A DNA stretch of 64,000 nucleotides, from contig JAEZTQ010000093.1 of NCBI GenBank assembly GCA_023443625.1, forward strand, positions 1-64,000. The letters are read 5' to 3'. The position numbers and the translations under genes were made by a program. Source of the stretch: Bacillota bacterium. GTDB lineage: Bacteria > Bacillota_A > Clostridia > Lachnospirales > Lachnospiraceae. The notes under the pieces were generated by a model. That model made no database searches and had not been told where the DNA came from. It saw nothing but the letters and a program-made list of their open reading frames with translations. This document shows positions 1-18,659 of the stretch, piece by piece. Each line of letters begins with the position of its first letter. The first letter of the stretch is position 1.

Positions 1-135
1 CTGTGGTTGGAGCCTTTCTGAAACCATCAAGTGGTAGGAGCAATGAACCAATCCACAGTGTCTCCAAAAGTATAGCATACAGTCCTTGGAGAGGGACTAT
101 AAATACTACTACTATATAATACGAGGACAATAAAA
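1..135. other. Upstream region of tnpB-like gene with an inverted repeat
   Basis: No complete gene fits here. An imperfect inverted repeat is visible: CTGTGGTTGG at 1-10 and CCAATCCACAG at 48-58, separated by about 37 bases. One plus-strand frame is open from the window edge to a stop at 117-119 and could be the tail of an upstream gene such as a tnpA-like recombinase. It shows no recombinase motif, so this is unproven. A good ribosome binding site (GAGGA) lies about 8 bases before the ATG at 136. Confidence 0.4.
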
Positions 136-1977
136 ATGATTACATCAGAAGCACTAATTCCCCTAGCAGGGTTATCCACAAACCTTAAGATACCAATGAA
201 TGTAACTTCAAATCCGAGTACGTTTATTGAATACCTTGATTTAGTTTCGTCGATAAACCGTATTGAATTTACCCATGGTGAAATTTACTTTACAGATGAT
301 AAGTGGGATTTCTCTCCTTATATTACAACTAACATATCACCATTAAAGGCAAAATTTAATTTTTTGTCAACTCCACCAATTTTTAAGAAAATACTCAAAT
401 ACTATATAATAAGCGAATTATATGCTAACAAACGTAAAATACAAACTCTTTGTGAGTATTTGAAATCGCTGAATCATTTTTTATCTTTTGCAGAAGAACA
501 AAGTTATTATGTTATTGAAGAATTTTCAGTTGATTTAATTCAAGATTATTTTGATTTTTATGATTTCTCGTCCCAAAGATGTTCTATTATTTCAAGTGCA
601 ATTAAATTATTCATGATTTTCTATGATTACAACTACAACAAAGTGATAACGGAATCTTTGATTAATTTTTTATCTTCAAAGAACAGAAAAAGTATCAGTA
701 AGACTCCTGATATTCCCGATGAATATTTTGATAATCTAGTCAAAACTGCAATTCACATTATTGATTCTTCAGACCCAGATGATCTGCCCTACAAAGGTAT
801 TGCTGCAATTATAATACTGTTAGGACAAACAGGATTAAGAGTTGGAGAAATATTAGCTATAGAAGAGCAGAACATTAAAGAAACAATCATCTTTAACAAC
901 CAAAAGGTCATGTATCTACAATACTATACTTGGAAGCGTGAACGTGGCAATAATAAGAGATCTTTAGTCGATACTTATTTGACCGAATTAGCTTGTAAAG
1001 CAATATCTTGTTTACTGGAAATATATAAAGATAAAAGAAAAAACCTAACTCATAAGTATTTATTCCTATTCGATGAGAACGGATTAAACAAACCCATATC
1101 TCCATGTAAATTTAATAAAATTACAAAACACTTTTATTTGTATATAAATAAATATTTTCCAACATTAAATCTACCACATACTAAATTTCCAGAGTTGTCT
1201 AGCACTTTTCTTACAAGTTTTAAAGGACCTTCAGAAAATTACAAGACGGATTATGTAGTCCATCCAACAGCTCATCAGTATCGTGTACATGTGAGTACTG
1301 AGCTTTATAACAAGGGGGTTCCTTTGGACTATATTCGTAGATTTTACGGACATCTATCATCATATATGCAAGGTTACTATGTCCGTCCAAAAAAAGCACA
1401 GCCACAAGAAGACATGAAATATTCTTTGGAAGTTCTAAAACAAATAGTAAAAGGTGATATAGAGCCTTTGGGAGGAAAAGATGGGCTTCAAGAGAAAATT
1501 AATGATTTTATCAAAAAAAATAAATACAATGTATCACAAGACCTCGATGAAATATGTGCAAAATTAGTGAGAATAATACCGATACGTCAAAAAACTGGCG
1601 GGGTTTGTATTAAGTCTTCTATGTTTAGAGAGTGCGGAAATGATGCACCAACAAATGAGTTTTACTGTGCATACAATATGTGTCCAAATATTTATCATTT
1701 TTATACAATGCTCCCTTTCACTTATAAACAAGCAAAAGACCTTGAGAAAAGCATAGATATTAATATGAAAAATGGTTTCAAGAAACAAGCTCAAAAAGAA
1801 ATGAATATGCTACATATTATCTCATCATCCCGCTTAACTTCTGAGATGCAATCAATGAAGAAGCTTATTACAAAAAATGGTGTTGACTATACATTAAGCC
1901 AACACCCTGAATTACTAAAGTTCATCAATGATTTTGATACAATTATGGAGGAAATAAAACAATGGACGATAAGATAG
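136..1977 (+). CDS. Tn554 TnpB-like tyrosine recombinase
   Basis: A 613-residue site-specific recombinase. The catalytic set of the tyrosine recombinase family is intact: Arg235 in GQTGLRVGE, HQYR at 380-383, His406 in YGHLSSY and Tyr414/415. An N-terminal core-binding segment precedes it. After the catalytic domain come about 190 residues with a cluster of cysteines (VCIK, FREC, YCAY, MCPN), possibly a metal-binding module. Tn554 TnpB is about this size and is likewise followed by a small tnpC. The downstream gene starts inside this one with a 16-base overlap, so the two are translationally coupled. In Tn554 a third recombinase, TnpA, lies upstream; here that would be outside the window. The family match is from motif layout and gene order, not a database search. 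Confidence 0.8.
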   Translation: MITSEALIPLAGLSTNLKIPMNVTSNPSTFIEYLDLVSSINRIEFTHGEIYFTDDKWDFSPYITTNISPLKAKFNFLSTPPIFKKILKYYIISELYANKRKIQTLCEYLKSLNHFLSFAEEQSYYVIEEFSVDLIQDYFDFYDFSSQRCSIISSAIKLFMIFYDYNYNKVITESLINFLSSKNRKSISKTPDIPDEYFDNLVKTAIHIIDSSDPDDLPYKGIAAIIILLGQTGLRVGEILAIEEQNIKETIIFNNQKVMYLQYYTWKRERGNNKRSLVDTYLTELACKAISCLLEIYKDKRKNLTHKYLFLFDENGLNKPISPCKFNKITKHFYLYINKYFPTLNLPHTKFPELSSTFLTSFKGPSENYKTDYVVHPTAHQYRVHVSTELYNKGVPLDYIRRFYGHLSSYMQGYYVRPKKAQPQEDMKYSLEVLKQIVKGDIEPLGGKDGLQEKINDFIKKNKYNVSQDLDEICAKLVRIIPIRQKTGGVCIKSSMFRECGNDAPTNEFYCAYNMCPNIYHFYTMLPFTYKQAKDLEKSIDINMKNGFKKQAQKEMNMLHIISSSRLTSEMQSMKKLITKNGVDYTLSQHPELLKFINDFDTIMEEIKQWTIR

Positions 1978-2426
1978 TTAATAGGTTTATCGAAATAGGT
2001 GAGGACTTTACCTCGTTAACACCCAAAGCAAAAGAAATAGCAATTAAAATAAATGATTTCTTTATAACGAAAAAAGAGGAACAAAATCTGTCTATTAACG
2101 TGCTACAAAACCCCTCTACTTCACTACTTAATCTAACAGAATCCATTGGCTGTTCCAGAACCACATTTTATACAAATACAGCACTCAAGAAATTATATGA
2201 GTATTTCATAACAGAATTAGAAAAAGATAATCCTTATGTATATATCAGAAAGCAAAAAGATGATATAAATGATATGCAAATGCAATTAAATAATTGTTAT
2301 GATAGAGATATAGATATTGAAAAACAGCGTATTGAAATAGAGACGCTTAATCGTTTAGTGCAATCAAAACACAAGGAAATTGAAACATTACGTCTTCGCA
2401 TAGCTAAATTGACCAATAACAAGTAA
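1962..2426 (+). CDS. Tn554 TnpC-like accessory protein
   Basis: A 154-residue protein with two parts. Residues about 40-85 resemble a helix-turn-helix (SIGCSRTTFYTN). Residues 95-150 form a strongly charged coiled coil (IEKQRIEIETLNRL, then KEIETLRLRIAKL). This layout, the size and the position directly after a large tyrosine recombinase match TnpC of Tn554-type elements, which in that system affects transposition frequency and orientation. The start overlaps the end of the upstream gene, and its ribosome binding site (TGGAGGA) lies within that gene. No cargo gene follows immediately. Confidence 0.75.
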   Translation: MDDKIVNRFIEIGEDFTSLTPKAKEIAIKINDFFITKKEEQNLSINVLQNPSTSLLNLTESIGCSRTTFYTNTALKKLYEYFITELEKDNPYVYIRKQKDDINDMQMQLNNCYDRDIDIEKQRIEIETLNRLVQSKHKEIETLRLRIAKLTNNK

Positions 2427-3008
2427 TCGTTCATTCGCAAATGCCTCGGATTGCGCCTTCCATGAATATTCTCATTCAAGGAAACCATAGTTCCGGAATA
2501 ATGGACAACAGGCTTCTTTTGATCGGAAACCGGCTTACTACTGCTTAATTACCTGGCACATGTTATTGGGTAAATTATCAATGCCTTACCGTTATTGCGG
2601 TGTGGAGCAGCCTTGATTATCTAATCGATAGCAAAGTAGACTAAATTAAGCAGAAAGCAGATTCTCTAATGCGGTTTCCCAAGTCCGGACAGCTGGTGTA
2701 ATTACCCGGAATATTCATACCACTTGTATTATTTCAATCAATAATTGGTTTATAATTAAGGTTACAAGGTCAGTTGATTAAACAATCAGTGAGAATAGCT
2801 ATAACAAGTGGAAATATACTTGCATCAAATTGATATATTCCCATGTTATCACGCTCCCATAATATTTTACTATACTCTTTAAAATACAATCTATTTAACT
2901 AATATCTGTTATCTGCAGTTTTACCTGTTTAGGCGTGTGGGTGTGGTAGCAAAGTCAGTATTCTTAAGGTAAATTTAGTATCTAATGTGATACAATAAAG
3001 TCGATATG
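2427..3008. other. Long non-coding stretch after tnpC
   Basis: About 580 bases with no convincing gene. A 35-codon plus-strand ORF begins at the ATG near 2441, but it has no ribosome binding site and no recognisable content. The first half is richer in G and C than the second. It may be a decayed remnant or part of the transposition region of the element. I looked for the missing 3' end of thyA here and did not find it. Confidence 0.5.
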
Positions 3009-3917
3009 TTATTCTGCACTTCGATCTCCAACAGCTAAAACGAAGTCTGCCATCGTCATGGCTGCATTCACAAACAATCGCGCGTGATGTTCTGCGATGT
3101 TAATGCGCTTGGCACCGACACCATGAGAATCGCTGCCCTTATTTCTCATTTCAGCAATAGCGGATAGAATTTTTTCGAGGCCAGAAAGCATTCCGTTGAT
3201 ACGCTTATCCATGTCCTTGTCCTGATGCATATCGTAAAGTTGCTTGACCTGATTGTAGAGTTTGCCAATATCGCCGCTCTCGGATGGCTTTTCGCCCTTC
3301 TTTTCAATCACATAGCAAAACACCTCTTCCAGCAACGTTCTGGACTTGGTAATAGCGCTATCGTAATTTCCGTCCATGACATCCTGCGTTGCCCGCTCGG
3401 ACAATTTCACTATGTAATCGCGGTCAATCATTTTTATTGCTAGAGCGGCAACTCTTACTGGTGCACCGAGCTTTTTTATTACTAAATGATCGCCACCCCT
3501 AACTAATTCATTGCCTCCAAAATATAAAATGCCGTTGATTTGATCGATAACAGTTTCAACAATTTCATTGTAAGCTAATTCTATAACTCTAGGTGTGTGC
3601 CCTCTTAGCTTTTGAGCAAACTGTCCTTTTGAGAACAAGAAAGTCAGCAAGTCCGATTCCCGATTATTTTTAATGCAGTGTACTAGCAAATCATCAAGAT
3701 ATGCCCATCTGCTCTGAGACCCATTCTGTCCGTAGATAACAGTCAAACCGAATCTGTTCGATATATTGCAAATATCGGGGCCGCTCAAATATGGCATAGA
3801 GGTCTTTATTTTTTCCTCTGTATCAGGCGTTCCTATTTCGCCAAAATCCATATCACCATCGAGAATGGCAAGAATACTTTTATCTCGGAGTAACTCCAAC
3901 AAATTCATTTCATCCAT
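3009..3917 (-). CDS. Abi-C family (abortive infection C-terminal domain) protein
   Basis: A 302-residue protein whose last 130 residues have the Abi-C pattern (PF14355 type): YDSAITKSRTLLEEVFCYVI, then EMRNKGSDSHGVG and a C-terminal helix with HHARLFVNAAMTMADFVL. The N-terminal half is not recognised. Proteins of this type occur in phage-defence loci, often between the hsdS and hsdR genes of type I restriction systems. Here the gene directly follows a remnant with an HsdS-like C-terminus, which fits that origin, but hsdM and hsdR are absent. The ATG at 3917 is supported by GAGGTGAG just upstream. Its likely promoter is the intact one in front of the broken regulator at 4157. Whether the protein still works without its partners is unknown. 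Confidence 0.75.
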   Translation of the reverse strand: MDEMNLLELLRDKSILAILDGDMDFGEIGTPDTEEKIKTSMPYLSGPDICNISNRFGLTVIYGQNGSQSRWAYLDDLLVHCIKNNRESDLLTFLFSKGQFAQKLRGHTPRVIELAYNEIVETVIDQINGILYFGGNELVRGGDHLVIKKLGAPVRVAALAIKMIDRDYIVKLSERATQDVMDGNYDSAITKSRTLLEEVFCYVIEKKGEKPSESGDIGKLYNQVKQLYDMHQDKDMDKRINGMLSGLEKILSAIAEMRNKGSDSHGVGAKRINIAEHHARLFVNAAMTMADFVLAVGDRSAE

Positions 3918-3926
3918 GCGCTCACC

Positions 3927-4157
3927 TCACTTTTTCAACTTCTCGCACAAAGGCAGGATTTCTTTCAATTTGGCCACAATGCGTTTCTGTTCAGCAAGCA
4001 TAGCGCATATTTTATCCAGAACAATCAGTATAACCTGCTAGTCCCGGAGCAGCTTAGTCATGGTGTTCAGGGATAATCCGAAATCTTTCAGAAGGTCAGC
4101 CTTACTCATTTTTTTGTCGACGAGCAATTTCCATAGTCTATGGTATGAAACAGCCAT
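3927..4157 (-). pseudogene. Broken Xre-type regulator fused to an HsdS-like tail
   Basis: Reading from the ATG at 4155-4157, the first 39 codons give a typical short Cro/C1-type helix-turn-helix start (MAVSYHRLWKLL, KKMSKADLLK, LSLNTMTKLLRD), ended by a TAG at 4038-4040. The same frame stays open beyond the stop. It continues with VLDKICAM, which is still regulator-like, and switches to LAEQKRIVAKLKEILPLCEK, which strongly resembles the conserved C-terminal segment of type I restriction specificity subunits. It ends at 3927-3929. I infer a deletion that joined the regulator to the end of an hsdS gene, plus a nonsense mutation. The next gene downstream is the Abi-C protein. Confidence 0.7.
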
Positions 4158-4187
4158 GATAAGCCCCCCTACTCCATATTTTATTAA

Positions 4188-4218
4188 ATTATATCATAAA
4201 ATTTGTAAATTCACAAAT
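4188..4218 (-). promoter_or_regulatory. Promoter and operator-like repeat of the broken regulator
   Basis: On the minus strand a -10 box TATAAT (4193-4188) lies 17 bases from a -35 box TTGTGA (4216-4211). The -35 overlaps an inverted repeat, ATTTGTAAATTCACAAAT (4201-4218), which could be the binding site of the former regulator. The promoter still reads through the broken gene into the Abi-C gene. Confidence 0.55.
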
Positions 4219-4528
4219 AAATATATACCGATTACAGTTTTTAGTCTCAACCCAACCATTCCTTTTAGGCCAAGGCTCCTTAAGAGGACTTTTTTTTGGC
4301 TTTTTTTATTATGCGGGAAACGTGAGAATTTAAGTTTTTATTCTACCTACCATGCTCATTCCAAGTAAGTATTCTACTTGCTATAAATCCAGATATTCAA
4401 ATGAAGAACAACTAGCACTTTTCTAATAAATCAATTGTATTATACAAGTGTTAATTGAAAAATGTAATATTATGGGGTAGAATATAAATATTATTTTCTA
4501 TTAAGAAATTACTGGGAGGATAGTGGCT
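4219..4528. other. AT-rich intergenic region
   Basis: About 310 bases between the leftward regulator remnant and the rightward gene at 4529. No gene is supported. It should hold the promoter of the downstream pair, but no single strong promoter stands out. The ribosome binding site GGGAGGA lies at its right end. Confidence 0.5.
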
Positions 4529-5437
4529 ATGGATTGGTCTGAAGCTTATAGAAGGCTTAGGGAGTCAAAAATCAATGGAGCATTTGTTAATAATGAAAGT
4601 ACAATTAATACCATACAAAAACTTAATGAATGGCACAGAGAAATGTTTATTAATTATTTTTATTCATTTTTAGAAAAAGGAAATCTTAAATCATTTAAAT
4701 CACATAGATATGCCATCTTATTCTTTTTGTCAAAACCAAGCATTAACGGTAAACCTTTTTCCATGATAACACAAATTGATTTAGATGATTTATTAACCGA
4801 GTTGATGAGCGATATCGGTTCGAAGTTTCAAAACAATCAAAATGCAATAAAAAATTACTTTACTTTCTATAAAGCTCAATTAAGTTTTGCACCTAAATTT
4901 ATTACAATATCAAAAAATGAAAAAACCTTAATAAATCCTGTTATTCCCATCACCTGCAAGGAGTTGGAAGAGATTCGCAAAATCATTAAAGAAGAACCTT
5001 ATCTACAATTTATATTTGAATTAGCCTATGAAAATCATATACGGTTTGAAGATTCAAAAAAATATAGCGAAAAGGCCTATGATAGAACCAATTTCAGATT
5101 TAAAACAAATAATAACAAGTACATAACTCTTTCTGATAAGTTAATAAATCTCGTCAAACAAATTGAGAATACAGATGAATTTAAGAATACTCGCTACAAA
5201 CACGGTTTTTCCAAAGAAGTTCTATTTGCAAAATTAGACGAAAACGGATTTAAACGAGCATTAAAATCTAGTGACGTAAATGAAGCATTAGAAAAAAGCA
5301 ATTCATTCAGATGTCCTGAATGCGGTCACATTTTTGAAGCAATTGCAGATAATTGGATCGTTAAGAGATATAATGAAGATGGTAACCTTTGGATTGTGTG
5401 CAAAGAATATTGTGGAGGAAACGATGGAGACATATAA
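4529..5437 (+). CDS. Unknown protein: integrase-like N-terminus plus zinc ribbon
   Basis: A 302-residue protein I cannot assign. Residues about 25-130 look like the helical core-binding domain of tyrosine recombinases (EMFINYFYSFLEKGNLKSFK). The following part resembles the start of a catalytic domain, but I see no HxxR box and no closing tyrosine, so it is unlikely to recombine DNA. The C-terminus carries a zinc-ribbon-like set: CPECGH, then a CKEYC about 25 residues later. The ATG at 4529 sits 9 bases after GGGAGGA; a GTG at 4523 is too close to that site. The stop lies 14 bases inside the next gene, so the two form an operon. Possible roles include DNA recognition in a defence or mobile module; this is inference. 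Confidence 0.55.
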   Translation: MDWSEAYRRLRESKINGAFVNNESTINTIQKLNEWHREMFINYFYSFLEKGNLKSFKSHRYAILFFLSKPSINGKPFSMITQIDLDDLLTELMSDIGSKFQNNQNAIKNYFTFYKAQLSFAPKFITISKNEKTLINPVIPITCKELEEIRKIIKEEPYLQFIFELAYENHIRFEDSKKYSEKAYDRTNFRFKTNNNKYITLSDKLINLVKQIENTDEFKNTRYKHGFSKEVLFAKLDENGFKRALKSSDVNEALEKSNSFRCPECGHIFEAIADNWIVKRYNEDGNLWIVCKEYCGGNDGDI

Positions 5438-6062
5438 CATAGCCGACATTTTACCTTTATATAATAACTTTAACAATAGTATGATTTTGCCCCCGAAGCA
5501 TGTCCAACCAAGAACCATAACGAATGCAAAATTGAAAACTCCTTATAATTCCTCATTTAGTGAAGATGAAATCGAATCAGATTTGAATGAATACCTGGAT
5601 ATTGACGATAATGAGTTTGTCAAACATAACATGGAACAAGGGCAATATGCAGAAGATTATGTAAAGAAAGTTATGGAGTTACAATACGGCAATTGTGAGA
5701 AGGTTAAAGCGAAAGAAGGATTTGATTTTAAAGTAATCATTAAAGATAGAGAAATTAAGCTTGAAGTCAAGTCATTACAAAATTACAACTCCCCTTTTCA
5801 TATTACTATAAACGAAATCAATCATGCAGTTGTATATAAAGATGATTACTTCTTATGTTTTGTTATTTTACCATCTATCCAAGTTGGTGTGAAAGATATT
5901 AAACTTTTGTCCGACCCAATTAGAAACCTTGATATTTCAATATCTACATTAAATAATATAGTATCAACCGAAAAATGCACTATTGTACCTGAGAAATTCT
6001 TAATAAAGCCCAAGAAAAATCTTATTAAATTGTTAAAAAGTAATTTTGAATATGAAAATTAG
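5424..6062 (+). CDS. DUF3883-like protein with PD-(D/E)XK-type core
   Basis: A 212-residue protein. The frame is open further upstream, but the ATG at 5424 follows a strong TGTGGAGGAA and is the likely start. Residues about 70-170 resemble the DUF3883 (NO VEIN C-terminal) domain: an initial QGQYAEDYVKKVME helix, then GFDFKVII and KLEVKS, which give the D...ExK arrangement of PD-(D/E)XK nuclease folds, and then FHITINEINHA and YFLCFVILPS. Such domains are frequent in restriction and phage-defence genes. The gene overlaps the upstream zinc-ribbon gene and is followed by a strong terminator, so the pair is a self-contained operon. Nuclease activity is inferred from the motif only. Confidence 0.6.
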   Translation: METYNIADILPLYNNFNNSMILPPKHVQPRTITNAKLKTPYNSSFSEDEIESDLNEYLDIDDNEFVKHNMEQGQYAEDYVKKVMELQYGNCEKVKAKEGFDFKVIIKDREIKLEVKSLQNYNSPFHITINEINHAVVYKDDYFLCFVILPSIQVGVKDIKLLSDPIRNLDISISTLNNIVSTEKCTIVPEKFLIKPKKNLIKLLKSNFEYEN

Positions 6063-6086
6063 TGTTCCTTCACGAATTTCATTAAC

Positions 6087-6122
6087 AATAAAAGTTCACG
6101 TTTCTACTCGTGAACTTTTATT
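6087..6122 (+). terminator. Terminator after the two-gene module
   Basis: A perfect 14-bp stem (AATAAAAGTTCACG with CGTGAACTTTTATT) around an 8-base loop lies 25 bases after the DUF3883-like stop. The A- and T-rich flanks allow it to work in both directions, so it could also end the thymidylate synthase transcript from the right. Confidence 0.8.
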
Positions 6123-6157
6123 AATTACTTTGTTGTTTTCATTAAAAAATAATCCTC

Positions 6158-6991
6158 TTAAACTGCAACTTCGATTTTTTCTTTAAATTCATGGGTTTGG
6201 TAATTGCTCACACTAAAGCTATCAACGGTAAATTGATAAAAATCTTTAATATTCTTGTCAATAACCACAGCAGGTGCATCCAACGGTTCCCTTTCGATTA
6301 TTTTCTTCACTAAGGGTATATGTCTATCATAAATATGAGCATCTGCAATAACATGGATAAATTCACCGACTTCAAAACCACTTGCTTGAGCCATCATCGC
6401 AAGTAGGGCAGAATATTGAAACTCATTGAATCCGCACCCTGCTGTAAGCATATCCTGACTCCTTTGATTCAACATGCCATTTAATTTGTTGCCTGTAACG
6501 TTAAAAGTCATAGAATAAGCACATGGCGCTAAAGCCATTTCGTTCAAATCGCTATGATTATATAAATTAGTAATTATTCTTCTTGATGATGGATTATTCT
6601 TTAAATCAAAAAGGACTCTATCAACTTGGTCAAATAATCCTTCCTTGTATTTATGTTTGACACCTAATTGATAACCATAGGCCTTTCCAATACTTCCTTC
6701 TTCATCCGCCCATGCATCCCAAATATGACTCTTTAAATCATTTACATTATTTGATTTCTTTTGCCATATCCATAAAATCTCGTCTATTGCAGACTTCCAT
6801 GCAGTCTTTCGTATGGTTGTCAGAGGAAATTCTTCCTGCAAGTTATACCTATGAACAACACCAAATTTTTTAATAGTATAAGCAGGTGTGCCATCTTCCC
6901 ATCTTGGTCTGACATCCATCCCCTTATCCCATACACCATTCTCTAAAATATCTTTGCATGTAGATATAAAATATTTATCTGCTAAACTCAC
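6158..6991 (-). CDS. thyA: Thymidylate synthase, complete copy
   Basis: A 277-residue ThyA that methylates dUMP to dTMP using methylene-tetrahydrofolate. Key parts are present: the nucleophile Cys157 in LAPCAYSM, the dUMP-binding NQRSQD (175-180), FNEFQYSALL for folate and substrate contact, and HIYDRH (219-224). PCAY replaces the more usual PCH, as in many clostridial ThyA proteins. Translation starts at GTG 6991 behind AAAGGGGGA. It lies just downstream of a truncated paralogue that is roughly three quarters identical by eye, so it is not a recent tandem duplicate. The best explanation is that this copy arrived with the island and replaces the damaged resident gene. Confidence 0.9.
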   Translation of the reverse strand: MSLADKYFISTCKDILENGVWDKGMDVRPRWEDGTPAYTIKKFGVVHRYNLQEEFPLTTIRKTAWKSAIDEILWIWQKKSNNVNDLKSHIWDAWADEEGSIGKAYGYQLGVKHKYKEGLFDQVDRVLFDLKNNPSSRRIITNLYNHSDLNEMALAPCAYSMTFNVTGNKLNGMLNQRSQDMLTAGCGFNEFQYSALLAMMAQASGFEVGEFIHVIADAHIYDRHIPLVKKIIEREPLDAPAVVIDKNIKDFYQFTVDSFSVSNYQTHEFKEKIEVAV

Positions 6992-7008
6992 TATTTCTTC
7001 CCCCTTTC

Positions 7009-7647
7009 CTATGCAACATTGTACATTAAAACTTCATTGTTTACTGTACAATCTTTAAAAGTATTATAACAATTATTAGCTGCTAAAATATCCTGAGAGC
7101 GCTGGTTTAGGATTGCATTAAGCACCAGTTTGTCCCTATCCTTTTTCTTTGTAACATTAAAGGTCATACTATAAGCACAGGGATAGAGATTCATCTCATG
7201 TAAATCCTGATGAACATAGATATTTGTCATGATCCTTCTGCTATAGGGATTGTTTTTCAAGTCATAGATAACTCGGTCAACCTGATCCATCTCACCTTCC
7301 TTGTACTTATGTTTGACACCCATCTGGTAACCATAAGCTTTGCCAATAGATCCCTTCTCATCAGCCCAACTATCCCATATATGACTATTTAGCTCATTAA
7401 CATTATTGGATTTCTTCTGCCAAATCCATAATATCTCATCTATACAGCTCTTTATTGCTGTCCTTCTTAGGGTCAGCGCCGGAAACTCCTTAGATAAGTC
7501 ATAGCGATTTACTACCCCAAACTTCTTTATTGTATATGCATAGGTGCCGTCCTCCCATTTAGGCCGTACCTTTTCTCCTTCAGTACTCACACCATTATCT
7601 AATATATCTTTACACATCTCAATAAAAATATTATCTGCTAAACTCAT
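7009..7647 (-). pseudogene. thyA: Thymidylate synthase, C-terminally truncated resident copy
   Basis: From ATG 7647 (site GGAGGATTGGAAT just before it) the frame gives about 192 residues of normal ThyA, including the catalytic cysteine in LYPCAYSM and NQRSQD. It then departs from the family after LAANN and ends after 20 unrelated residues. The missing part carries the folate-binding region and the HIYDRH box, so it should be inactive alone. The switch lies near 7071. It is probably the resident gene: nrdD, which also serves DNA precursor synthesis, lies just upstream on the same strand. An ATG five codons earlier (7662) is open but poorly spaced from a ribosome binding site. Confidence 0.8.
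7018..7052. repeat. Inverted repeat at the thyA breakpoint
   Basis: Perfect 8-bp arms ATTGTACA (7018-7025) and TGTACAAT (7045-7052) lie 20 bases from the place where the truncated thyA stops matching its family. The repeat could be a recombinase-binding site at the end of the inserted element. This is inference from position and symmetry. Confidence 0.4.
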
Positions 7648-7990
7648 ATTCCAATCCTCCATGTTCTTTTGGAGGATTTTCCTCCATGTTTTTTGGAGGA
7701 TTTACCTCCATGTTGTTTTGGAGGATTTACCTCCATGTCTTTGTTGGGGATTTTCCTCCATATACATATTAATGAATTCTCTTATATAACTATAAGCTAT
7801 ACCTTGTCTATAATTGTACCTCACGAAATCAGTCAAGGCAATATATAATTTACCCATCCCTTGGTTGATCTGATTAATACACCTTTTACACTCTAATCCT
7901 ATAACAGATAAAATATCCGTACAGGAATAAGTTAATAATAACCTTAACCATACGGATATCCTATGTATAAATATTATTTGCCGAAAGTTT
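7648..7990. other. Leader between nrdD and truncated thyA
   Basis: About 340 bases. The thyA-proximal third is a tandem repeat array, listed separately. The rest could encode a 51-residue minus-strand peptide (7857-7702, beginning MGKLYIALTDF), which runs into the repeats. Its only ribosome site abuts the ATG and I recognise nothing in it, so I do not call a gene. Confidence 0.4.
7657..7762 (-). repeat. Tandem 24-25 bp repeats containing GGAGG/CCTCC palindromes
   Basis: Slightly more than four units of the form CCTCCATGTTNTTTTGGAGGATTTA, starting at 7657, 7681, 7705, 7730 and 7755. Each junction gives a palindrome such as GGAGGATTTACCTCC. On the thyA-coding strand each unit supplies a Shine-Dalgarno-like GGAGG and an ATG, and the last unit is the actual ribosome binding site of thyA. 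The array may form alternating hairpins that expose or hide that site. Confidence 0.8.
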
Positions 7991-17012: not shown

Positions 17013-17168
17013 ATGAACGAACAAAATATTATGTATGCATTGGAGATAATGGGCAAAGGAATGTTAGCTATTTTTGTAGTTATCCTTATACTATATGCTA
17101 TTGTTCTTATTCTAGCAAAGGTAACAAACCTACCTATTTTCAACAAAGGAAATGATGCAGAGGAATAA
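17013..17168 (+). CDS. Small membrane protein, probable decarboxylase accessory (gamma-like) subunit
   Basis: A 51-residue protein with one hydrophobic helix (LAIFVVILILYAIVLILAKV) and a charged C-terminus ending GNDAEE. It begins 16 bases after the beta-subunit stop behind AAAGGAG and is followed by a terminator, so the two genes form a bicistronic operon. Na+-pumping decarboxylases have a small one-helix gamma (OadG-like) subunit that anchors the complex. Size, topology and position fit, but the sequence is too short to prove it. Confidence 0.7.
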   Translation: MNEQNIMYALEIMGKGMLAIFVVILILYAIVLILAKVTNLPIFNKGNDAEE

Positions 17169-17223
17169 AGAATCCTGTCCGTCGAATCTATGTAATTATT
17201 AATATAGAATAATTAATATAAGT

Positions 17224-17263
17224 AAGGCTGCTGTAGAACCAATAGGTTCTAACAACAGCCTTT
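17224..17263 (+). terminator. Terminator of the decarboxylase operon
   Basis: AAGGCTGCTGTAGAACC pairs with GGTTCTAACAACAGCCTT around a short loop and is followed by TTCTTGT. It lies 55 bases after the small-subunit stop. Confidence 0.8.
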
Positions 17264-17336
17264 CTTGTATTAATTATTAAACTACACAATATCTAACATT
17301 ATAAAACAGAAGCCTTTTCCTTAATAAATTTATTAT

Positions 17337-18659
17337 TTAGTTTATGTATCGAACTGCCTTGTAAGGCTGCCTGTAATTATAATTGGTAATTTGAATTCCT
17401 TTTGATCTGCTTCTAGCACTGATTACTTTTCCATTACCGATATAGATAGCCACATGGTTGATTGAGCCGTTTCTTGTATAAAAGACCAGATCTCCCTGAC
17501 GAAGATTACTGATAGAGACCCTTGATCCCCCTGAAGCTTGCGTTCTTGATGTTCTTGGAATACTGACACCAAAATGAGAAAAAACTGATTGAGTAAAACC
17601 AGAGCAATCGGCTCCTCTTGTAAGGCTCGTGCCTCCCCACACATAGGGATTACCTACAAACTGTGTTGCATAGGAAGCGATTCTTCCACCAAGTGAGGAG
17701 GAAGAGGAGTTGTCTGTGGAAGCACTACTAGATGCGCTACTGGATGAGCTACTGGATGAGCTGCTGGATGAGCTACTGGATGAGCTACTGGATGAGCTGT
17801 TGGATGAGCTACTGGATGAGCTGTTGGATGAGCTGCTGGATGAGCTATTGGATGAGCTTTTGGATGAGCTTTTTGGCGAAGTTCTACTTTGATTTGATGT
17901 GTCTTTTTGCTGACTTCTTGCCTCTTCTTCAAGTCTTGCCTGTTCCTCTTCAATTGAAACTGCTTTTTTATAAACTCTATTAAGATTTACATAATCCTTT
18001 GAAACAAACCCAGTCTCATCATCATTATAGGATATCTTCGTCCATGTATCCAATTCCTCAATGACCTTAAAGGTATCTCCTTGAGCAACTAAGGTAAGTA
18101 CCTGAGCATCAGTAGTTGGTTTATTTCTAACCCTAAGTGTAGTCGTTGTTACTTTTGCCACTTGACTGCCTACCTTTGTAGCAAGCTTAACAGCTTCTCC
18201 TCCGGTAATTAAATATTCCTCTTTTATGTAGCCTGTTACTGAGCCAGATTTGATCTTATACCAGCCTTTCTCCTTAGAAATAATGGTTGCCGCTGAGTTA
18301 TCATGTAGTTTTCCAATGATTTCACCGCTCAAACTTGCTTTACTTCTGATATTTACATAATTAGCAACCTGAGCAAAGGCAAGACCTTCATCCTTAGTTT
18401 CTTCATTCTCTTTCAGAAACTGTATGATTGCGGTATCAGCATTATCCTCACTATGAAAAAACTCATCCAGTGATAATATAATACCTGCAACTGGTTCCCC
18501 TGTTATTTTTAAAGAGTAGTCATTGGCTGCTTGTTCCTGCAAAGCCTGTGATGCTACTTTGGTCTCTATTTTGTCTTTCGTAAATGCTTTGGCTTCACTG
18601 CTGTTAAAAACCATTGCTCCAATGATGAAGATTGAAACAATCCTAGGTATTTTGTACAT
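17337..18659 (-). CDS. Secreted NlpC/P60 cell-wall hydrolase with SH3 domains and serine linker
   Basis: A 440-residue exported peptidoglycan peptidase. After a signal peptide (IPRIVSIFIIGAMVFNSS) come two bacterial SH3 domains (about 95-150, with NIRSKASLSGEIIGKL, and about 165-225, with TLRVRNKPTTDAQVLTLV), which probably bind the wall. A charged stretch and a linker of almost pure serine follow, then the NlpC/P60 catalytic domain with the nucleophile Cys in GADCSGFTQS and His in INHVAIYIGNG. This family cleaves D-gamma-glutamyl bonds in the stem peptide. The ATG at 18659 has GGAGG 6 bases before it; another ATG six codons upstream does not. Confidence 0.92.
   Translation of the reverse strand: MYKIPRIVSIFIIGAMVFNSSEAKAFTKDKIETKVASQALQEQAANDYSLKITGEPVAGIILSLDEFFHSEDNADTAIIQFLKENEETKDEGLAFAQVANYVNIRSKASLSGEIIGKLHDNSAATIISKEKGWYKIKSGSVTGYIKEEYLITGGEAVKLATKVGSQVAKVTTTTLRVRNKPTTDAQVLTLVAQGDTFKVIEELDTWTKISYNDDETGFVSKDYVNLNRVYKKAVSIEEEQARLEEEARSQQKDTSNQSRTSPKSSSKSSSNSSSSSSSNSSSSSSSNSSSSSSSSSSSSSSSSSSSSSASSSASTDNSSSSSLGGRIASYATQFVGNPYVWGGTSLTRGADCSGFTQSVFSHFGVSIPRTSRTQASGGSRVSISNLRQGDLVFYTRNGSINHVAIYIGNGKVISARSRSKGIQITNYNYRQPYKAVRYIN
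17697..17876 (-). repeat. Tandem repeat encoding the polyserine linker
   Basis: Short units of the type AGCTCATCCAGTAGC, in register 15 and 30 bases apart, encode a Ser/Asn/Ala run in the wall hydrolase. The units lack stops in other frames too, so long antisense frames (DELLDELL repeats) appear as artefacts. Repeat number could vary between strains and change linker length. Confidence 0.85.

Follow-up and report, generated by a model that had tools for sequence, protein, structure and literature searches.

The analysed DNA, a stretch of 64 kb (hereafter the window), raises the question of how a truncated thymidylate synthase gene (thyA) came to lie directly beside a second, full-length thyA. 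A first-pass annotation had proposed a Tn554-like element that targets thyA and carries defence cargo, and the gene order that it gave, i.e., recombinase, tnpC-like gene, Abi-C protein, two-gene module, replacement thyA and breakpoint, was found complete and in that order (Table 1). We consider it quite probable that positions 136–7070 represent the cargo side of an element with site-specific tyrosine recombinases, and that this element splits thyA and carries a rescue copy of the gene. The window itself shows genes three and four of the element; the first two of its four recombination genes would lie to the left, and for the left end the relatives were consulted.

Table 1. Features of the putative element and of its target gene in the window.
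Feature	Position	Strand	Evidence or remark
Third recombination gene, IntB/TnpB-type tyrosine recombinase, 613 aa	136..1977	+	Pfam Phage_integrase 1.7e-12
Fourth recombination gene, small HTH/coiled-coil protein, 154 aa, TnpC/Srap/GinD-type by position	1962..2426	+	Alignment, 8 elements
AbiJ-like abortive-infection gene, cargo	3009..3917	-	PADLOC AbiJ 1.5e-80; Pfam Abi_C 6.1e-21
Putative HTH regulator relic with in-frame stop, cargo	3918..4157	-	HTH name from reading of the translation
Cargo gene, first of two-gene module	4523..5437	+	Four homologues besides itself
NOV_C-domain cargo gene, second of two-gene module	5424..6062	+	Pfam NOV_C 1.7e-8
Replacement thyA, full length, foreign to host clade	6158..6991	-	Pfam ThyA profile 2-264 of 266
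Right (recombinase-distal) element end, TGTAC motifs (7018-7025, 7045-7052)	6992..7070	.	Sequence
Resident thyA, N-part only	7071..7662	-	Frame continues into element to stop at 7009

The split thyA gene and its neighbours

The open reading frame at 7009–7662 matches only positions 2–179 of the 266 in the ThyA profile (Pfam), and all of the best 120 of its 7985 scored homologues have at least 276 aa. Among the matches listed, the closest intact homologues (those with names belonging to Herbinix, Anaerocolumna and Mobilitalea) showed 89–93% identity over about 88% of the frame. The frame thus lacks the last quarter of thyA, and its tail does not belong to this gene. The truncated product is 71% identical to the full-length ThyA of the window over 198 columns; the latter can be aligned from residue 3 to residue 276 with ThyA structures of the B. 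subtilis type and is presumably an active enzyme. In the thyA tree, the window's thyA grouped with Lachnospiraceae; the resident genes of the two thyA elements were placed inside their own host clades (100/99 and 100/96) and the replacements outside them.

The second of these elements was found in an Oscillospiraceae metagenome-assembled genome (G001), where one contig bears a thyA N-part with a full thyA behind the break. The proposal that thyA is the target held, as the resident gene of the window ends at the element boundary with the same ANN|W codon break as in G001. The missing end (residues 188–276), which the first-pass annotation had named as the thing to look for, was located on a second G001 contig, beside a DHFR-like gene; the two halves thus lie on separate contigs of the assembly, and genes that we cannot explain are placed between the thyA C-part and the contig end. 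At the two element ends of G001, GTTATCATTACT and TGTACC recur with the same spacing; the junction cores differ, and the strict duplication there is only 1 bp. In the genus of G001, thyA residues 1–187 form part of one 276–321-aa frame in 21 of 26 genomes, and the ANNWNV motif is present in all 13 intact thyA genes read. The search of G001 yielded no second complete ThyA and no ThyX (0 of 3 genomes searched; the control was found in 6 of 14). Two other candidates, P0121 and P0122, taken at first as fusions of an N-part with a second ThyA, were rejected, as in them a normal ThyA is repeated internally in tandem, probably through an artefact of assembly.

The 8-bp inverted repeat which the first-pass annotation placed at the breakpoint does exist. 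Taken alone it is at chance level, and it was dropped as evidence because the 64-kb window contains 98 inverted repeats with 8-bp arms and a spacer of up to 30; its TGTAC cores sit where other element ends bear TGTAC or GTTCA motifs. The right element end (6992–7070) also contains the ribosome-binding site of the replacement thyA, and a scan for promoter consensus sequences in the element end gave 4 sites, with 5.1 expected in shuffles. As for the defence cargo, a family match upheld the AbiJ-like gene, and the assignment of the two-gene module to defence was a guess. The product of 4523–5437 matched no Pfam family above the cut-off; its weak structural model (pLDDT 69.8), with tyrosine recombinases as the best Foldseek matches at E 2e-3 and none at 1e-3, points to a possible integrase-like fold with a C-terminal zinc ribbon. 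The product of 5424–6062 gave a partial PADLOC match to TmtA (7.2e-10).

Recombination genes and the class of the element

Ten related elements carry four recombination genes encoding a tyrosine recombinase (YR), a YR-like protein, a large YR and a small HTH protein; the first three products have about 435–479, 578–896 and 586–695 aa, respectively (one gene-1 frame of 335 aa sits at a contig end). The R, HxxR, H and Y residues of gene 1 are invariant in eight relatives, and gene 2 retains R524, R576, H603 and Y613, with the H of HxxR lost in nine relatives. In the window IntB, R235, H380, R383, H406 and Y414/Y415 occupy the positions of the catalytic set, and the protein is 32–42% identical to its counterparts in nine of ten compared elements and 31% identical to that of E. 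faecium. The 154-aa protein shows 23–33% identity to the small HTH/coiled-coil fourth proteins of related elements and, in an hhalign profile comparison, matches a TnpC-type protein with DUF6262 (probability 72%, E 3.4e-5).

The element probably works like Tn554, and its layout is nearer to that of the SE and GInt elements. From the label of a Tn554-like element, we retain the mechanism class and the placing of recombination genes at one end followed by cargo; membership was abandoned, as Tn554 has three recombination genes (tnpA, tnpB and tnpC) and the ten relatives have four. Tn554 is reportedly an element of Staphylococcus with radC as its target, and we know of no case in which it replaces its own target. 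Tn554 is described as a site-specific transposon that uses tyrosine recombinases, a small protein of the TnpC type and a brought-in 6-bp spacer (PMC10214605). Our element would resemble it in these respects; here the insertion within a gene is plain, and the 6–7-bp cores common to both junctions in relatives may correspond to such a spacer.

The same source reports SEs (strand-biased circularizing integrative elements) only from Gammaproteobacteria, whereas the carriers found here are mostly Bacillota; it lists imperfect terminal inverted repeats, a 6-bp spacer and target specificity among their features, and the passages considered describe no target-gene replacement (PMC10214605). By this layout description, SEs share the order YR, YR-like protein without the full motif, large YR and small protein (PMC10214605), which was found in the relatives and which window genes 3 and 4 fit, the motif being present in gene 3. 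GInts, also reported from Firmicutes, combine a four-gene ginABCD operon at one end with cargo, an AT-rich far end and imperfect repeats; an operon end of this type, cargo, an AT-rich far end and imperfect flanking repeats were all found in the window and its relatives. In GInts, GinC lacks the first catalytic arginine and GinB is complete, whereas here gene 2 is incomplete and gene 3 has R235; GInts are said to insert at gene ends or in intergenic regions, probably without fully inactivating their targets, and no replacement gene is described in the passages considered. RIT elements, with three tyrosine recombinases of 315–410 aa and 34-bp terminal repeats, do not agree with the protein sizes in the relatives. 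The gamma-mobile-trio (GmtY, GmtZ and GmtX), whose cargo is rich in defence genes, is matched only weakly and far below the curated NCBIfam cut-offs by gene 1 (GmtY, 42 of 340 bits) and gene 3 (GmtZ, 19 of 600 bits).

A true three-gene Tn554-family transposon (TnpA, TnpB, TnpC), with tnpA just left of the window, would suit the two visible genes in both their location and their length; furthermore, the IntB family is matched by hhalign to the second recombinase of a staphylococcal Tn554-type element (96%, E 5e-9) that has the same split-gene-plus-homologue layout. This assignment is nevertheless hardly credible, as the ten related elements have an extra recombinase-like gene (578–896 aa) between the first and the third, and their IntBs are far closer to the window IntB than the staphylococcal TnpB is.

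Target-gene replacement has a staphylococcal precedent in Tn552-II, a tnpABC/tgl/blaZ array of S. aureus (Wan et al. 2025, PMC12486829), which has a look-alike on the S. epidermidis plasmid pSP01 (NZ_KR230047). It likewise is a transposon inside a gene which bears a homologue of the same gene, and rescue of a disrupted yolD-like gene has already been proposed for one Tn554-like element (2025, PMC12486829). On pSP01 we found two minus-strand YolD frames, a piece of 94 aa at the end with the recombinases and one of 136 aa on the opposite side. Tn552-II differs in having three recombination genes and a small yolD-like target outside core metabolism; its homologue is separated from the end by a resistance cassette, and its recombinases are only distantly related to those of the window. 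Our full-text literature search, with most subscription papers outside its coverage, found this yolD-like precedent and none for thyA, nadE or rtcB.

Related elements in other genes

Searching genome contigs with the IntB profile confirmed 7 of 13 pattern stretches, and further searches confirmed 2 of 397, 1 of 391, 1 of 300, 4 of 392, 1 of 8 and 5 of 229, mostly carriers already known. The named carriers were mostly Bacillota, with one contig filed under Anaerobiospirillum; a profile scan of viral contigs revealed no relative of the element, and phage records contained no match to it. Altogether, 14 element copies were seen, and the target was readable in seven; it was not in G002 contig C208 (where only genes 2 and 3 were recognised), G003, G007, G1430, G1471, G1621 and G1659. 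The count of seven omits near-identical E. faecium plasmids. In the readable elements, the cargo held the same gene as the target in four cases, a gene of the same function in two, and neither in one.

The complete chromosome of Anaerocolumna sp. AGMB13025 (G004) contains a split nadE with a full nadE at the corresponding position, with the 6-bp repeat ATCTGC at both junctions and the element terminal sequences GTATGACACATTTCAAATATGT and ATATGGTACATTTTAAATATGT. This full nadE is the sole intact match in the 6.8-Mb genome; in 12 of 14 other genomes of the genus there is a single nadE frame of 641–681 aa. In an Anaerobium genome (G006), rtcB is broken at PDVH|EGYGFP, and GTACAC is common to both junctions; the full rtcB is 88% identical to the rtcB C-part and runs opposite to the N-part. 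Two further elements split hsdM and bring a type I R-M system, and in one of them (G1364) two other reading frames separate the hsdM N-part from the replacement R-M genes. An element in a symporter gene (G002) is bordered at each junction by the same 7-bp repeat and, alone among the seven, has no replacement gene.

Both junctions could be read in four relatives, and where the core is common to both sides (nadE, rtcB and symporter) it comprises 6–7 bp. The replacement copies differed from the native target core in four of four cases; this was dropped as proof of immunity to re-insertion, since a divergence of about 30% would give it by chance. IntB identity was 40% between the two thyA elements and 42% to the hsdM element of G1364; the thyA-element IntBs are thus not closer to each other than to the latter, so it cannot be claimed that target choice follows descent. 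Taken together, the relatives with other split housekeeping genes suggest a strategy in which a single insertion event both harms the host and repairs it.

Two other explanations have to be weighed against this. The thyA cargo could have entered by homologous recombination with the resident gene, or arisen by tandem duplication, with no site-specific targeting of thyA; the two copies are indeed the same gene, side by side, with 71.7% of bases in common over 554 aligned positions. We find this very improbable, as the break falls at the identical codon in two distant hosts, the thyA copies show no sign of being hybrids of one another, recent duplication does not account for the replacement, and unrelated genes (nadE, rtcB, symporter) show the same anatomy with common cores and matching terminal sequences, the repeat at both symporter junctions being present even though no homologous cargo is carried. 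Somewhat less remote, yet still unlikely, is that the insertion is real and the carried thyA, rather than a rescue copy, is common cargo under a promoter of its own (e.g., a nucleotide gene derived from a phage or a stray gene of host type). Phages and islands do carry thyA, and the reversed rtcB and the symporter element without a replacement would agree with this view; against it, four of the seven readable elements bear the gene that they split, beside the same end, and two more a gene of the same function. Given the few cargo genes per element, such a match of target and cargo would presumably be very unlikely by chance.

Proposed insertion and rescue, and their possible consequences

Under the targeted insertion and rescue that we favour, the element would be mobile, and its recombinases would exchange strands over a spacer of about 6 bp within conserved-motif codons of a housekeeping gene, cutting thyA in two at ANN|WNV. 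The loss would be made good by a full-length homologue of the target from another lineage, carried just inside the far end. In both thyA elements, as in the nadE element, the replacement has the orientation of the target and starts 17–22 bases past the stop of the truncated gene (for nadE, 22 or 43 bases by the start chosen), and for this reason we infer that the captured resident promoter drives the replacement, which would be expressed once the element is in place at its proper site; as the rtcB copy is reversed, such a drive does not hold in G006. The host would then live on the copy provided by the element.

To a wider reading we give about an even chance: that these elements form a class of self-complementing transposons which is rare but widely distributed in Bacillota, with essential genes as landing sites, a foreign substitute switched on by a promoter, addiction, and replacement of core genes. 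The landing sites would be catalytic-motif codons of the essential genes thyA, nadE, rtcB and hsdM, and correct insertion would be the moment at which the resident promoter turns on the full-length foreign substitute. The host would swap its own enzyme for that of the element, and since it would depend on this enzyme, losing the element in any way except by precise excision would be lethal.

Gene-targeting elements usually strike gene ends or restore a short tail. Targeting the conserved core of a housekeeping gene would offer a site in nearly every host, the carried substitute paying the cost, and a truncated housekeeping gene followed directly by a full, diverged copy may serve as a search rule for unnoticed elements. 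If this reading is true, it would explain how disruptive insertion into essential genes can spread, the essential gene acting as selection for correct insertion and as an addiction module that needs no toxin, and it would provide a concrete route of horizontal replacement, in which foreign versions take the place of core genes, thyA and nadE among them.

Resident and replacement thyA genes

The 26-row ThyA tree grouped the truncated thyA of the window with Lachnospiraceae ThyA proteins (a 12-row set, support 100/99), and, as judged from the sequence, this gene is therefore the host's own. The complete thyA of the window fell outside that set (highest identity 76%); the two genes share 71% identity over their common part, and among the 120 matches listed every intact homologue of the truncated gene has at least 276 aa. 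In an Oscillospiraceae MAG (G001), four recombination genes precede a full thyA, and a thyA N-part comes after it. The same tree placed the resident thyA of G001 inside a 12-row set (100/96) and its replacement outside it, on a long branch of unsure position. The location of the replacements outside the resident clades in both genomes argues against a recent origin of the full copies by duplication of the residents.

The ThyA search of the G001 genome pointed to three places, i.e., the full copy, the N-part (residues 1-192) and residues 188-276 on another contig, where the C-part adjoins a gene that we read as DHFR-like; the evidence is thus spread over two contigs, as it is in the rtcB carrier Anaerobium acetethylicum (G006). 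Matches were found in 24 of the 26 searched genomes of the G001 genus: 21 besides G001 hold residues 1-187 in one 276-321-aa frame, and two matches are partial. ANNWNV was present at the site in all intact thyA genes read (13/13). On the coding strand, the N-part of G001 keeps GCCAATAACT and continues with GTTATCATTACTTTAAGAAATGTACC, whereas GGTACAAAAAGCATAGTAATGATAACGAG stands before the C-part, which itself continues TGGAATGTGG; both element ends have GTTATCATTACT and TGTACC, equally spaced and in inverted orientation. The same codon is broken in the window N-part, which reads GCTAATAATTG up to the break and TTATAATACTTTTAAAGATTGTACAG after it.

Between the thyA C-part of G001 and the contig end (L039, 8104-12852), a transglutaminase/LRR protein gene and a frame resembling a sigma factor are present, which may be either element cargo or a further rearrangement.

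The window genes from the recombinase to the truncated thyA are summarized in the table. The HTH relic is possibly a decayed partner or regulator. For the first protein of the two-gene module, four homologues in all were found, and modeling weakly suggests that it is perhaps a non-catalytic integrase-like fold with a zinc ribbon; the pair may act as a small unit in defence or regulation. Immediately upstream of the resident thyA (7665-7745), several consecutive copies of TGGAGGATTTnCCTCCA were noticed, three of which score as terminator-like hairpins vs. 0.3 expected from shuffles; the N-terminus of the homologue P0201 carries the related reading IHGGRNPPKIHGG.

Window genes from the recombinase to the truncated thyA and parts of the split nadE of Anaerocolumna sp. 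AGMB13025 (G004)
Source	Feature	Position	Strand	Remarks
Window	Tyrosine recombinase, 613 aa	136-1977		
Window	Small protein, 154 aa	1962-2426		Overlaps the recombinase gene
Window	AbiJ-like gene	3009-3917	minus	PADLOC 1.5e-80
Window	HTH-gene relic	3918-4157		Next to the AbiJ-like gene on its upstream side; 39 codons, then an in-frame stop
Window	Two-gene module	4523-5437 and 5424-6062		Second is a NOV_C protein
Window	Complete thyA	6158-6991	minus	Covers the Pfam ThyA profile end to end
Window	Truncated thyA	7071-7662	minus	Pfam ThyA match ends at 179/266; frame continues to stop at 7009
G004	nadE N-part	17075-17683		CN_hydrolase
G004	nadE C-part	4673-6103		NAD_synthase

Related elements and their targets

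The window recombinase, compared with 5.8 billion proteins, gave 196 matches at 1e-10 (the best 120 listed), and an alignment of 39 of these proteins was used in the DNA search for relatives. It revealed seven loci in genome_contigs, three further ones in a phylum sample, another two in an order sample and a second copy in G002. Four consecutive recombination genes are present in ten elements (G001, G002 contig C202, G004, G005, G006, G1364, G1430, G1471, G1621 and an Enterococcus faecium plasmid); those of G003, G007 and G1659 are interrupted by contig ends, and on G002 contig C208 only the second and third genes were recognised. Among seven elements with readable targets, a small sample obtained with close recombinase kin, four carry the same gene, two the same function and one neither; seven further copies have no readable target.

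In the complete chromosome of G004, the NAD synthetase gene nadE is interrupted by an element with four recombination genes plus a few cargo genes, and directly inside the far end of this element sits an intact nadE that encodes 669 aa with both domains. ATCTGC occurs at both junctions, and the ends, read inwards, are GTATGACACATTTCAAATATGTAC and ATATGGTACATTTTAAATATGTTC. Twelve of 14 other genomes of the genus have one 641-681-aa nadE frame (no match in two). The search of G004 with the C-part yielded this part and the full copy only, so the nadE of the element is the sole intact copy found.

In G006, the rtcB C-part adjoins the recombinase end on one contig, and on the second contig are the N-part, which breaks at PDVH|EGYGFP, and a complete rtcB of 480 aa that spans the profile (1-426/426) and is 88% identical to the C-part; GTACAC is common to both junctions. 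A piece of a second archease-like frame (archease by our reading) adjoins the full rtcB.

HsdM residues 3-168 and 168-478 (62% and 52% identical to intact HsdM) flank the element of a Solobacterium MAG (G005), in which an HsdR, HsdM and HsdS set of a different type adjoins the N-part. The G1364 element likewise carries HsdRMS, separated by two other frames from an HsdM N-part that breaks off at GEFY; no C-part was found. The HsdM carried by G1364 (L070, 2078-5938) is of the type split in G005 (L023, 7747-8259; 62% and 52% identity), and by sequence the cargo of one element is thus the target of another. On contig C202 of G002, TGCTTTA stands at both junctions of a split sodium:solute symporter gene, and the contig showed no other symporter gene. 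The E. faecium locus (L001, nine near-identical records) places the module on large, mostly conjugative enterococcal plasmids, adjoining the C-terminal piece of an HsdM together with type I R-M genes; positions 3554-3841 hold what remains of another gene-2 homologue.

Proposed insertion and expression of the replacement

Gene 1 has the full tyrosine-recombinase catalytic set, gene 2 lacks the first histidine, gene 3 has the catalytic set and gene 4 encodes a small HTH protein. If these elements act like SEs, GInts and Tn554, a circular intermediate would undergo strand exchange over a spacer of ~6 bp; mobility is deduced from sequence, and the left end of the window's element lies outside the window. 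Insertion falls in codons of highly conserved motifs (ThyA ANNW, NadE ICEDLW, RtcB PDxHEGYGFP and HsdM GEFYTP), so that a single site would suit many hosts.

The stop of the truncated frame is separated from the replacement start by 17 bases in the window and by 22 in G001 and G004 (43 with a second possible start in G004), with both genes on the same strand. The simplest reading of this arrangement is that the resident promoter would transcribe the replacement. However, the full rtcB of G006 faces the N-part and departs from this rule, and a promoter inside the roughly 80-110 bases of the element end could conceivably drive the replacement instead.

Precedents and novelty

Four-gene modules are known in GInts (PMC5385486) and SEs (PMC10214605), but the sections of these papers available to us do not describe replacement of the target gene. 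The accessible part of the Tn552-II report (PMC12486829) presents tgl, a target-gene-like gene, for which its authors suggested rescue. The same arrangement occurs in a Tn554-type three-gene element of the Staphylococcus epidermidis plasmid pSP01 (L076, 4507-10366), with a split YolD-like gene at the left and a full one at the right. Its recombinases are only distant kin of the present ones (hhalign 96-99% for genes 1 and 3, 72% for gene 4), profile-match E-values at such distance reflecting a common fold and not membership. The replacement principle thus has, as far as the consulted part of the Tn552-II report goes, a single published precedent, for a three-gene element whose target is a minor gene (PMC12486829). 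Apparently new are the four-gene lineage in Bacillota, core metabolic genes as targets, the substitute placed behind the cut gene and the target-plus-substitute pattern recurring over unrelated targets.
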